From Lachnospiraceae bacterium (lineage in GTDB: Bacteria > Bacillota > Clostridia > Lachnospirales > Lachnospiraceae), in the NCBI GenBank assembly GCA_017473115.1, contig JAFUNC010000018.1:1-64000 (forward strand): DNA of 64,000 bases. The letters run 5' to 3'. Each line of letters begins with the position of its first letter. The first letter of the stretch is position 1. Shown here in pieces: positions 37,862 through 42,097 of the stretch. A program made the position numbers and the translations under genes. The notes below the pieces were generated by a model. The model saw only the letters and a list, made by a program, of their open reading frames with translations, was not told the DNA's origin and searched no databases.

Positions 37862-38027
37862 ATGATGTGATAACATGGTTATATATTTTTGTAATATCCT
37901 CATCCATATTGATTGGCACTATTTGAATATCTAAATGCTCTCTGGCAAATATAACAAATAACTGGTGAGCAAAACCTTGTCCCATCCACTGTACCCCCTC
38001 AAAATCTATAACAAGGAGCTGTTTAAA
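37860..38027 (-). pseudogene. DUF4325 (STAS-like) C-terminal remnant
   Basis: The minus strand has ~55 open codons ending FKQLLVIDFEGVQWMGQGFA, continuing HQLFVIFAREHLDIQIVPIN, and then a stop. This matches the DUF4325 pattern of a hydrophobic strand, DFxGV, and a GFA(D/H)ELF helix. No start codon or N-terminal half is present. Upstream the frame runs into the antisense of a cytosine methyltransferase, so the gene was cut at about 38,010-38,040. DUF4325 proteins are common in mobile and defence islands. Confidence 0.6.
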
Positions 38028-38549
38028 CGTATTTTGATTAAGCGAATAGATAAAAAACCATCAGAATTTAAGATTCTTGATTTATTCTGTGGTGCAGGAG
38101 GATTGTCTTGGGGAATGGATAAAAATCCATATTTTAAGACAATGGTAGCATTAGATTTTGATGAGAATGCGGCAAATACTTTTAAAAAGAATATGCCTTA
38201 TGCAGAAGTTGTTGTAGGGGATATTACAGATTCTAAGATAAAAGAGAATATAGTATCTTTGGCAAAAAAGACGGGTGTAAATATGATAGTCGGTGGACCG
38301 CCGTGCCAAGGATATTCGATGAAAGGAAAAAAATTAGGATTGCAGGATCCACGTAATTTTTTGTTTAGAGAATATTTGGATTTGGTTCAAAGATTGCAAC
38401 CGGATGTGTTTGTTATTGAAAATGTTAAAGGATTGCTTTTATCAGCTAATGGATGGTTTAAGGATCAGATAGTTAGCACTATAGAAAAATTGGGATATAC
38501 GGTAAGATTCGGTATATTAAACGCTGCAAATTTTGGGGTGCCTCAACCG
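37965..38549 (+). pseudogene. C5-cytosine DNA methyltransferase, C-terminally truncated
   Basis: The frame carries motif I (ILDLFCGAGGLSWGMD), motif IV with the catalytic Cys (VGGPPCQGYS), motif VI (VIENVKGLL) and the start of motif VIII (NAANFGVPQ), then breaks off. The target-recognition domain and motifs IX-X are missing, so it cannot be active. The break coincides with a 26-nt perfect palindrome. The first ~25 codons are antisense to the DUF4325 remnant, so the native start may also be lost; homology begins near 38,050. Confidence 0.85.
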
Positions 38550-38574
38550 CCTATGATTTTGCAAAATCATAGGC
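38549..38574. repeat. Perfect 26-nt palindrome at the methyltransferase break
   Basis: GCCTATGATTTTG is followed immediately by its exact reverse complement. It sits precisely where methyltransferase homology stops and the next gene's promoter begins. It may be a terminator or a scar of rearrangement. Confidence 0.85.
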
Positions 38575-38587
38575 CAGCTACATTTTT

Positions 38588-38616
38588 TCATGCTATAATC
38601 TATATAGGAGGAAGTT
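38588..38616 (+). promoter_or_regulatory. Extended -10 promoter and ribosome-binding site
   Basis: TGCTATAAT is an extended -10 (TGnTATAAT), soon followed by AGGAGG and the ATG at 38622. No good -35 is seen. Confidence 0.55.
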
Positions 38617-38621
38617 CATCT

Positions 38622-39263
38622 ATGAAATGTATTTTTTGTAAACAACCTACCGGTTTTATGCGCAGATACCATAGCGATTGTCATCATAAAACCAAAATCA
38701 TAATTCAGCAAATCGAGACCATAATAAACCAGTATAAAGATATAGATGTTGTTCCAAGGATGCCAAACAGCAACTCAAGGAACTTACCAATTCCAGTACA
38801 CTATATAAAAACTATATGGCCTCTAAACTGATTGACCGAACAACCAAATATACAGATGAAACAATCATTCATATTGAATCGGGGCTTAAAATCTTTGAAT
38901 CCAAGAATCGATGCAAAATGGTTGAAAGCGGATATAGGTATGAAAAGATGCCTACTTGGTCAGAAAAAGAATATTTACTTGATAACTCTGGTGCCATTAT
39001 TTTTACCGATGCTGCAATCTATTTATATGTCAATTCAAAAACTATGCGTTATCCGTACACCAAAATAGTAAATTATGGTTTTGAAAAGATATTTACTATG
39101 AATCAGGCTTATTTTGATGTAAAGACATCCTCACCTTTTCCTCATAGATTTTCTTTTACAGATACATTCAGAGAAAAGAACAAAATATTTGTTTATTTCT
39201 ACATTTTCTCAAATAGTAGAAGAAACACACATGCTCCTTCTGCATTATATTGCAATGAATTAA
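38622..39263 (+). pseudogene. Frameshifted gene: zinc-finger N terminus plus PH-like body
   Basis: The ATG at 38622 opens MKCIFCKQPTGFMRRYHSDC (CxxC then HxxxC, a likely zinc site). After ~45 codons the frame shifts at about 38,745-38,760. The main body continues in another frame (MASKLIDRTTKYTDET, IIFTDAAIYLYVNSKTMRYP, YTKIVNYGF), which resembles a short bacterial PH-like beta domain. A second shift near 39,190-39,205 restores the first frame, ending EETHMLLLHYIAMN. Two compensating shifts could also be assembly error. I do not recognise the family. Confidence 0.55.
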
Positions 39264-39426: not shown

Positions 39427-40200
39427 TCACAGAAATCGCTCTATATACCGCTCCAACACATTAATATCCAACGGATTTCCCGTCGTCTCATGCGTTATAA
39501 TTAACCCATCGCCCAGCAAAATCCCATTTTTCTCATACATATCTATTTTTTGCATTGCGTTTTCGCTATAAGACATTTTATCCATCATCCCCAAATGTTC
39601 AAGAATATACTTCTTTCCGGTCCTTTTATTGAGCACCGTAAAATCAGGATACACTACGATAATCCGATTTCTGTATTTCAATTCCAAAGGAAGTTCATAA
39701 TGATAAAGGATTCCTCTTCTATACAAAGTATCTGCAATGATTTTTTCTGACTTAGAACGCACTCTTTCTCCCTTTTCGGTATAATATGCCGTTGTATCAT
39801 CCTCAGCAAATCCTTTTCCCTTATACTCCAGTTTCTCAAATTCTTCTTTCATATTCTCCAGCGGTTTTATATACGGCTTCACCAGTTGTTTTCGTGCCGG
39901 ATGAAGTTTAGCATAGACTTCATCCAGCCTATACTTCTCCAAAGTTACTAAAAGATTTTCCAATGCAAGTATCTGTTTCTTTATACATCCCAACAACTGC
40001 AGATTGTATTCTTTCTGCGCAATTTTCTCGACTAAATTTCTCTTTTTCTTCCCCTGATATTCCTTTCCGATATAATATTGATAGCATCCTTTGTTGATTG
40101 CACAGCGAAGTTTCCCCTCCGGTGCGAACTTTACATATCGCTTTGCTTGTTCTTCCAACTCTATTAGTTCCTGCAAAGTACCCCTTAATTCTTTTTCCAA
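39427..40200 (-). CDS. Solitary PD-(D/E)XK nuclease-like protein
   Basis: The 257-residue product has a Lys/Glu-rich, coiled-coil-like N-terminal half (to ~120). The C-terminal half carries RSKSEKIIADTLYRRGILY, then VYPDFTVLNKRTGKKYILEH. The SEKIIAD helix, PDF and ...ILEH spacing matches the PD-(D/E)XK endonuclease core (with ExH in place of ExK). It starts at TTG with AGGAGG 11 bases upstream. No partner methyltransferase, helicase or ATPase is adjacent. The tandem array begins 21 bases upstream of the start codon. Confidence 0.65.
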   Translation of the reverse strand: MEKELRGTLQELIELEEQAKRYVKFAPEGKLRCAINKGCYQYYIGKEYQGKKKRNLVEKIAQKEYNLQLLGCIKKQILALENLLVTLEKYRLDEVYAKLHPARKQLVKPYIKPLENMKEEFEKLEYKGKGFAEDDTTAYYTEKGERVRSKSEKIIADTLYRRGILYHYELPLELKYRNRIIVVYPDFTVLNKRTGKKYILEHLGMMDKMSYSENAMQKIDMYEKNGILLGDGLIITHETTGNPLDINVLERYIERFL

Positions 40201-40220: not shown

Positions 40221-40704
40221 TTTACCTACTATTGTTTTATTTACTTGCTCTAATTTGTATTTTTTATCATTTGTTTTTTTAATTTACCTACCTTAAGTGT
40301 TTCATCAGCAGCAAATAGGGAAATCTAAGTGCACTAAGTAATATTTTACCTACTGGCACTTCTTCACAATCCTATAAGTAGGTATTTCCCTGGGGCATCT
40401 GCACTCTTTTACCTACCGACACCTCTCTACAAGCCTCTCAATAGGTATTTCCCCGGGACATCCGCACTCTTTTACCTACTGACGCCTCTCCACAAGCCTA
40501 CAATAGGTATTTCCCCGGAGCATTAGTACACTTTTTACCTGCTGACGACTCTTCATATGCCTACAGTAGGTACTTTCCCGGGACATCCGCACATATTTAC
40601 CTACTTACACTTCTTTGTATCATACCAATAGGTAATTCCCCACGCATCAGACGTATTTTTACCTACTAGGAAGCATCAAATTATAAATGGTAGGTAATTC
40701 CCCC
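40221..40704. repeat. Tandem array, eight 62-63 bp units with alternating inverted sites
   Basis: TTTACCTAC-type boxes start at 40221, 40283, 40345, 40408, 40471, 40534, 40596 and 40658 (intervals 62 or 63). Between them, inverse boxes (A/G)TAGGTA start at 40378, 40441, 40503, 40566, 40628 and 40690, with a degenerate one at 40315. Inverse boxes are followed by a conserved TTCCCC tail. Inter-box sequence is similar but not identical, so this is not a CRISPR. It fills the region upstream of the nuclease gene and downstream of tuf. Confidence 0.9.
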
Positions 40705-40849: not shown

Positions 40850-40892
40850 AATGAAAATTACAGCCCTCTAATAACTTAGAGGGCTGCAAAAA
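40850..40892 (-). terminator. Rho-independent terminator after tuf
   Basis: CAGCCCTCTAA (40861-40871) pairs with TTAGAGGGCTG (40876-40886), with a T-rich tail on the minus strand, 20 bases after the tuf stop. Confidence 0.8.
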
Positions 40893-40909: not shown

Positions 40910-42097
40910 TTATTCAATGATAGTAGCAACACGACCAGAACCTACTGTTCTACCACCTTCACGGATAGCGAATGTAAGACCCTGTTCCATAGCGATGGGA
41001 TGGATCAATTCGATTGTCATTTCTACGTTATCACCAGGCATGCACATTTCTGTACCTGCAGGAAGGTTACAAACACCTGTTACGTCAGTTGTTCTGAAGT
41101 AGAACTGAGGTCTGTAGTTGTTGAAGAAAGGAGTATGACGTCCACCTTCATCTTTTGTTAAAACGTAAACCTGAGCTGTGAACTTTGTGTGGCACTTTAC
41201 TGAGCCGGGTTTAGAAAGAACCTGTCCTCTTTCGATTTCAGTTCTCTGAACACCACGAAGAAGTGCACCAATGTTATCACCAGCCTGAGCTTCGTCAAGC
41301 ATCTTACGGAACATTTCGATACCTGTACATACAGTCTTCTTTGTTTCTTCCTTGATACCAACGATTTCAACTTCGTCGTTAAGGTGAAGAACACCACGTT
41401 CTACTCTACCGGTAGCAACTGTACCACGACCTGTGATTGTGAAAACGTCTTCTACAGGCATAAGGAAAGGCTTATCTGTATCACGCTGAGGATCAGGAAT
41501 ATGAGCATCTACTGTTGCCATAAGTTCCATGATCTTGTCACCCCATTCACCCATGGGATCTTCAAGAGCCTTAAGAGCAGAACCCTGAACGATAGGGCAA
41601 TCTGTGAACTCATATTCTTCAAGCTGTTCTGTGATTTCCATTTCTACTAATTCAAGTAATTCAGGATCTTCAACCATATCACACTTGTTCATAAATACTA
41701 CGATGTAAGGTACACCTACCTGACGAGAAAGAAGGATGTGTTCCTTAGTCTGAGCCATAACACCGTCAGTAGCAGCAACTACGAGGATAGCGCCGTCCAT
41801 CTGAGCAGCACCGGTAATCATGTTCTTAACGTAGTCAGCATGGCCCGGGCAGTCAACGTGTGCATAGTGTCTGTTTTCTGTCTGGTATTCAACGTGTGCT
41901 GTAGAGATAGTGATACCACGTTCTCTTTCTTCGGGAGCCTTATCGATGTTTTCGAAGTCTACCTTTTCGTTACCAGATACTCTTTCAGCCAAAACCTTGG
42001 TAATAGCTGCTGTAGTAGTTGTTTTACCATGGTCTACGTGACCGATGGTACCGATATTACAATGGGGTTTTGTTCTTTCAAATTTAGCTTTAGCCAT
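40910..42097 (-). CDS. tuf: Elongation factor Tu
   Basis: GTPase that delivers aminoacyl-tRNA to the ribosome. The 395-residue product has [15 protein letters not shown] (P-loop), [12 protein letters not shown] (G3) and NKCDMV (G4) and is complete through [11 protein letters not shown]. Last gene of the str operon, with a terminator directly downstream. Confidence 0.99.

Follow-up and report, generated by a model that had tools for sequence, protein, structure and literature searches.

Introduction

The BIMEs (bacterial interspersed mosaic elements), which are mosaic clusters of repetitive extragenic palindromic (REP) sequences in E. coli, carry alternately inverted sites in extragenic DNA, and the iteron and parC/parS arrays consist of repeated protein sites in phase with the helix. 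In toxIN, a type III toxin-antitoxin system, tandem repeats lie directly upstream of a nuclease gene and act as RNA. RAYT is thought to maintain or spread the REPINs (PMC3116915), and RAYT/TnpA-REP is described as an HUH enzyme that processes single-stranded REP (PMC8266576). Here, an array of alternately inverted boxes is analyzed at positions 40221..40704 of a 64,000-nucleotide stretch from a Lachnospiraceae bacterium (contig JAFUNC010000018.1, positions 1 to 64,000; hereafter the window), together with the adjacent gene, which encodes an uncharacterised PD-(D/E)XK-like protein, and the homologues of both in related genomes.

The arrays are rather likely to be double-stranded binding sites of this adjacent protein, which would behave somewhat like REPIN/RAYT while being an unrelated enzyme. 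The likeness to REPIN/RAYT lies in a stand-alone DNA-processing gene beside its own inverted-box cluster, with dispersed extragenic copies, in the occurrence within one genome of several families that each have a box of their own, and in preferred distances (PMC3116915, PMC8266576). The present system differs in its PD-(D/E)XK-like protein, its apparently double-stranded sites and its tandem rows locked to helical turns. It shares alternately inverted sites in extragenic clusters with the BIMEs and differs from them in having a PD-(D/E)XK partner, whereas the iteron and parC/parS arrays differ from it in that here the neighbour is nuclease-like, the location chromosomal and the box families many. 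The DNA geometry, the lack of a Pfam link of the protein and the presence of solo arrays set it apart from toxIN, and the N-terminal region of the protein differs from those of the TnsA and I-Bth0305I nucleases. We know of no described case of 10.5-bp steps across many box families.

The original prediction made for this DNA concerned the array; the nuclease-like gene, the family-wide pairing of gene and array, and the solo arrays go beyond it. If the proposed reading is correct, this is a protein and interspersed-repeat system whose enzyme is of a type that has no relation to the known transposases that spread REPs, and its dozens of natural protein/site pairs could be used to learn how DNA is read by such proteins. 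The helical phase that is kept across the whole protein family would also make the maintenance of bacterial repeats directly testable.

Results

Anatomy of the array

The eight boxes of the array, seven with the sequence TTTACCTAC and one with TTTACCTGC, have TACC starts at 40223, 40285, 40347, 40410, 40473, 40536, 40598 and 40660, which reproduces the spacings of 62, 62, 63, 63, 63, 62 and 62 bp given in the original prediction. The predicted alternation every ~31 bp is likewise found, with the inverse boxes midway between the TACC boxes at 31-32 bp. On the gene strand, the box-to-box distances are 31, 31, 31, 31, 31, 32, 31, 31, 32, 31 and 32 bp, followed by 62 and 62 bp where two of the left boxes are decayed. 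Tandem Repeats Finder (TRF) detects the array independently (period 63, score 277). The pattern TACCTAC-N54..57-TACCTA has 10 matches in the 2.23 Mb of the window's own genome, seven in this array and three in a second array on another contig, and the reversed control has none; the pattern is not due to chance.

The array lies directly upstream of the minus-strand open reading frame (ORF) 39427-40200, between tuf and this ORF, in the minus-strand order tuf, terminator-like hairpin, array and 257-aa ORF (Table 1). Only four bases separate box 8 from the AGGAGG ahead of the ORF. The earlier statement that the array does not fit CRISPR is accepted, and CRISPR is rejected, in that each unit consists of two inverted short boxes and the spacers are alike within an array (loops 0.67 identical in genome G282, described below).

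Arrays beside homologous genes

The survey of homologues covers 115 loci, comprising 110 matches from the family-genome sample (mostly the best-scoring) and five divergent or metagenome-assembled genome (MAG) relatives. A TRF array with a period of at least 40 is present on the upstream side of 68 of the 115 loci, which is a lower bound, with L021, L022, L036 and L062 having less than 130 bp upstream. Among loci with at least 300 bp on both sides, an array is found within 600 bp upstream in 60/100 and downstream in 9/100. The arrays reach up to ~16 units. Within the genus, an array of period 53, 62 or 63 lies beside 14 of the 18 homologue loci (one of these arrays is downstream, and one locus is L116, already counted), and the other four give 66, none, 58 and 92. 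At L038, L082, L093 and L097 a tandem array is found downstream and none upstream, which may represent a switched arrangement or belong to a neighbour.

Inverted arms with a score of at least 6 and regular spacing are present at 46 loci; this set excludes loci in which no arm reached a score of 6 or fewer than two spacings were regular, as well as L015, L047 and L106, the arms of which do not alternate. L012, which was mistranslated, does not enter the analysis. At 41 loci, half-sites of 6-14 bp are inverted and tandemly repeated with a centre-to-centre distance of 29.6 +/- 2.3 bp, a value partly imposed by the required pair span of 33-43 bp, which leaves 41 of the 46 loci, and the pairing is ambiguous in 15 of the 41, where two pairings fit. 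The 41 compared arm strings are all different as written, and some pairs have a common core (nine bases in L086/L116, seven in L020/L059 and L090/L077, six in L029/L039). The window box includes GTAG, a feature of the REPtron GTAG/CGTC tag, and other boxes are often without it.

Helical quantisation of the unit period

The predicted helix phasing extends well beyond the window, as the unit periods of the homologue-side arrays cluster at whole helical turns, at about 53, 63, 73-74, 85 and 94 bp. For the 68 unfiltered TRF periods, the phase coherence R, scanned from 6 to 20, is highest at 10.5 bp, where it is 0.79; 61 arrays are no more than 1.5 bp from a 10.5-bp multiple, against 19 expected, and 64 are no more than 2 bp from one. 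Relatives spaced out of phase, which were looked for because they would speak against the prediction, amount to four of the 68 arrays (L015, L055, L088 and L104, each more than 2 bp off). The nominal Rayleigh p of ~4e-19 for the 68 arrays assumes an independence that is violated by related loci. In the 46 arm-validated arrays, R is 0.857, a value reached by none of 20,000 jittered sets, with 44/46 within 1.5 bp; it is 0.845 after five loci with related boxes are dropped. As a small control, 11 other tandem arrays (400 kb of one genome) give R = 0.30, with 5/11 in phase.

Conservation of boxes and covariation with the protein

TACCTA/TAGGTA boxes 30-32 bp apart are common to the window gene, L032 and L003, the proteins of which are 50-58% identical, and the spacers of L032 and L003 compared with those of the window are near chance identity (0.24-0.38 vs ~0.28). 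The boxes therefore stay while the spacers diverge, which answers the possibility, raised with the prediction, that the array is a plain slippage repeat. By eye, L032 sits after tuf; L003 has a terminator-like hairpin like that of the window, and tuf was not seen on the L003 contig.

Protein and array vary together, in part. Across 41 loci (500 permutations), similarity of the N-terminal half of the protein correlates with similarity of the period (rho 0.229, p 0.002), whereas similarity of the C-terminal half does not (rho 0.045, p 0.22). Half-site identity shows no correlation with protein identity over all pairs, one of these comparisons having faulty 12-mers in several rows, and the box correlates with the protein only among the closest pairs (10 pairs in which the N-terminal identity is 0.45 or more, p 0.0014). 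L086 and L116 have the same box with periods about one turn apart (73 vs 62). These data suggest that both geometry and specificity are set by the N-terminal half, with a specificity that appears to change fast.

Solo arrays away from the homologues

Arrays with the genome's own box and a similar period, lying apart from any homologue, are present in four genomes (the window's own, G282, G319 and G207); in G236, which is 83% complete, the box pair is found only at the gene, and no solo array was found. G282, a single contig, contains GTACCCC-N20..32-GGGGTAC 41 times at 15 loci, with none in the reversed control. One of these loci is the array of homologue L061 and 14 are solo, two of them within ~5 kb of L061. 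Of the 45 unit spacings at the examined loci, 40 measure 94 +/- 1 bp, and the other five are 167.5, 167.5, 168, 176.5 and 187 bp, of which the first three equal 16 turns and the last two are ~2 bp short of 17 and 18 turns. With orientation considered, the identity between arrays is 0.54 for loops and 0.41 for linkers (chance 0.37 and 0.31), and within arrays it is 0.67 and 0.57. Since the between-array identities exceed chance, the G282 copies are, judged from their sequences, diverged relatives that have kept box and spacing with few indels. Their common descent is in keeping with spreading, and the rarity of indels with a constraint on spacing.

A second array family of G282, with the box TGTACCATA and a period of 72, is found both beside a gene and at a solo site (L186/L187). 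The period-72 solo array was found before its gene was examined, and a third homologue then matched both box and period. The two arrays are in reverse orientation to each other, and their spacers are 0.51-0.56 identical (chance 0.32).

In G319, a TACGGG array of period 63 follows tuf and another of period 62 lies 0.6 kb further, running off the contig end. Both share their box with a homologue on another contig (period 62), and their spacers, compared with the homologue array, are near chance in the first and 0.41-0.51 identical in the second. In G207, the box pair is found at three loci besides that of the gene, with none in the reversed control, and at one of the three the pairs are 150 and 159 bp apart. 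The solo array of the window's own genome has four units (G000:C23:58065-58290) spaced 62, 63 and 62 bp, and its spacers resemble those of the window array little more than chance would give (0.31-0.38 identical, chance ~0.28).

Several observations concern the surroundings of these arrays. In G282 (loci L174-L184), the linkers of several arrays share, by eye, a TATGTTGT-like motif in a similar place, which may mark another binding site within the 94-bp unit or reflect shared descent. On G282:C1, 12 of the 15 GTACCCC loci fall in the stretch that runs from 2.77 Mb over the contig start to 0.65 Mb, and the sign of the GC skew switches at some point from 0.40 to 0.65 Mb; the clustering may reflect nearness to an origin or spread from the source gene. 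The solo-array region lies between convergent ORFs, which were called mechanically, at 8 of the 12 loci examined in G282 (L173-L180 and L182-L185). An IS110-like transposase ORF, named by eye (L192 6596-7846, minus strand), adjoins the solo array of the window's own genome.

Proposed mechanism and alternative explanations

In line with the cooperative protein-binding array suggested in the original prediction, the arrays are very probably double-stranded protein-binding sites, an interpretation supported by phase and box conservation, and the adjacent protein is likely to be the binder. The half-sites, about 6-14 bp long, differ between most paralogues, and each inverted pair, its half-sites ~30 bp apart, would be occupied by one dimer. 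The placing of pairs at whole helical turns suggests that the dimers stack or contact one another on one face of the DNA, and the position of the gene-side array suggests that it probably also feeds back on the expression of the gene. Because solo arrays of the same genome have the same box and a similar period, the protein probably acts on them in trans, keeping or spreading them, perhaps by cutting; alternatively, the bound arrays may organise the chromosome. Spreading of the repeats as the function is a tentative proposal, somewhat short of an even chance. The relatedness of the G282 copies supports spreading to roughly the degree to which it undercuts the argument from equal spacing. We slightly favour the view that this is a new two-part chromosomal system, in which a fast-evolving, sequence-specific PD-(D/E)XK protein is paired with genome-wide, helically phased arrays of a private half-site, at the gene and in intergenic DNA, with box and period changing together in each lineage. 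Such a system would be either a selfish repeat-spreader independent of REPIN/RAYT or a domesticated chromosome organiser.

A transcribed chain of hairpins, the alternative named with the prediction, here taken as an antitoxin or guide RNA for the downstream nuclease (as in type III toxin-antitoxin or TIGR-like systems), now seems improbable. The position of the array directly upstream of a nuclease-like gene does resemble toxIN, many arrays run up to the gene, and the arms could form stems of 6-14 bp. When these arms are read as gene-strand hairpins at the 46 loci, there are 2572 Watson-Crick pairs, and the mismatches comprise 82 G-U, 67 A-C and 165 others, with G-U exceeding A-C in 21 loci and A-C exceeding G-U in 15; this slight excess gives no clear sign of selection on RNA pairing, and RNA offers no evident reason for periods locked to 10.5 bp. 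Promoter-like sites (at least 10 of 12) are found between array and gene in 9 of the 47 loci where this gap measures 45 bp or more (perfect in L102), inside 1 of 60 arrays and ahead of the array in four loci, in regions that differ in length, and TTGACA-N17-TATAAT is seen by eye between array and gene in L187. Because the mean promoter score in the gap of the 47 loci is 8.53 vs 8.24 in crude shuffles, the position of the promoter is settled in a minority of loci only, and the scan of the window gives no excess (4 found vs 4.1 in shuffles). The window has no terminator-like site between array and gene, an Rfam scan of 37-43 kb found nothing in the array and three sub-threshold matches in the region, and Pfam gives no Nop or ToxN-type match.

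The arrays could instead belong to another host protein, as chromosome-organising or silencer-type sites, the nuclease-like gene being a frequent neighbour or hitchhiker. This is unlikely, if less so than the RNA system; the solo arrays away from the gene, their frequent position between convergent ORFs and the concentration of the G282 loci on one side of the chromosome agree with it, whereas in a single genome each paralogue goes with a box and period of its own (GTACCCC with 94, TGTACCATA with 72) and the period follows N-terminal identity. An autoregulatory operator serving only the nuclease-like gene would account for an array that abuts the ribosome-binding region in the window and ends near the ORF in many loci; as the whole explanation it is given as little credence as RNA, with solo arrays that adjoin no homologue in four genomes and unit numbers that exceed the need of an operator. 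Functionless slippage satellites would explain the variable copy number and the greater likeness of loops within than between arrays, yet they leave unexplained the kept boxes amid diverging spacers, the quantised period and the inverted alternation across many different boxes, and are hardly credible, although the control of other tandem arrays is small (11 arrays).

Membership in known systems was also considered. Both the inverted-box cluster at the gene and the dispersed extragenic copies with the same box that mark a REPtron are found here (68/115 loci and four genomes, respectively); membership was nevertheless rejected, with no HUH (Y1) Pfam match and a C-terminal domain of the PD-(D/E)XK type. 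On the features tested, TIGR-Tas was rejected for want of a Nop Pfam match in the query protein P0001 or 50 family members, and a type III toxin-antitoxin system for want of a ToxN Pfam match and of a terminator-like site from array to gene in the window.

The nuclease-like protein and its family

The family has the PD-(D/E)XK core fold with conserved E, D and E, and the 257-aa protein is a putative nuclease. P0001, as searched, is this protein with one extra residue before the TTG start. Its N-terminal region is predicted to form a helix, a beta-hairpin and a long helix; residues 31-89, a hairpin and then a helix with the motif G-LR....G..QYY...YI.K, have what we take to be a resemblance to the integrase arm-binding domain. 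Among the folds that VIA-align lists for the N-terminal region, none is of the arm-binding or AP2 type, a result that carries no weight either way, and a single-sequence AlphaFold model was discarded (pLDDT 42).

P0001 has no Pfam match at E up to 1, and 50 aligned members (E up to 0.01) match five families, one member each; none of these searches gives a Y1, Nop or ToxN match. There is no NCBIfam match for the protein and no significant match in a PDB sequence search, and PHROGs gives a single weak endonuclease match (E 0.0065). In PADLOC, the PDC-S68 models match the C-terminal domain of 50, 50 and 48 of the 50 members, and further matches are to PDC-S69 (33), HEAT_CxxC_PDDEXK (27), AbiGi (1) and LmuB (1). 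These look like domain sharing and by themselves are no proof of a defence role; PDC-S69, though, is comparable in size as a model, and the family may have a defence link.

In the sample of 299 genomes from the family of the window, 101 contain a homologue, at up to eight matches each, and in the genus 14 of 31 genomes do. In the phylum sample, 26/398 genomes matched; only five genomes, all belonging to the window's family, give near-full-profile matches, and the remaining 22 rows are partial (15 towards the C-terminal domain, six N-terminal, one middle). Divergent relatives were found in three other named metagenome bins, one of which (L034) has a 61-bp array, and the closest named relatives are Lachnospiraceae MAGs. 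The protein family is mainly within one bacterial family, probably Lachnospiraceae. The plasmid search gave no DNA match and the phage search two unannotated metagenomic records; viral contigs gave no match to P0001 and nine loci with the family profile, matching from residue 114 on. This small PD-(D/E)XK nuclease-like family and its arrays appear to be undescribed, in that neither was found in the titles and abstract starts among the matches listed, most subscription papers lying outside that search, so that a description may exist elsewhere.

Features of the window

Table 1. Coordinates of the array, its half-sites and the neighbouring features in the window
Feature	Position	Strand	Remarks
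Alternating inverted-box array	40221..40704	no strand	period 62-63 bp (~6 helical turns), site every 31-32 bp
Inverted half-site pair 1 (TACCTAC...GTAGGTA)	40660..40696	no strand	
Inverted half-site pair 2	40598..40634	no strand	
Inverted half-site pair 3	40536..40572	no strand	one box is CAGGTA on the gene strand
Inverted half-site pair 4	40473..40509	no strand	
Inverted half-site pair 5	40410..40447	no strand	
Inverted half-site pair 6	40347..40384	no strand	
Pair 7	40285..40322	no strand	40285 box intact, partner decayed (AATAGGGA)
Box 8, single half-site	40223..40229	no strand	adjoins AGGAGG of the nuclease-like gene
Uncharacterised 257-aa protein	39427..40200	minus	TTG start; C-terminal PD-(D/E)XK-type domain; presumed array partner
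Terminator-like hairpin	40858..40889	minus	follows tuf; upstream of the array
tuf (EF-Tu; named by eye)	40910..42097	minus	upstream neighbour, outside the system

A C-5 cytosine methylase (PF00145, E 4.9e-45) is encoded at 37965-38831 on the plus strand, ~1 kb from the nuclease-like gene; it matches only positions 1-151 of the 324 of the profile and looks truncated.
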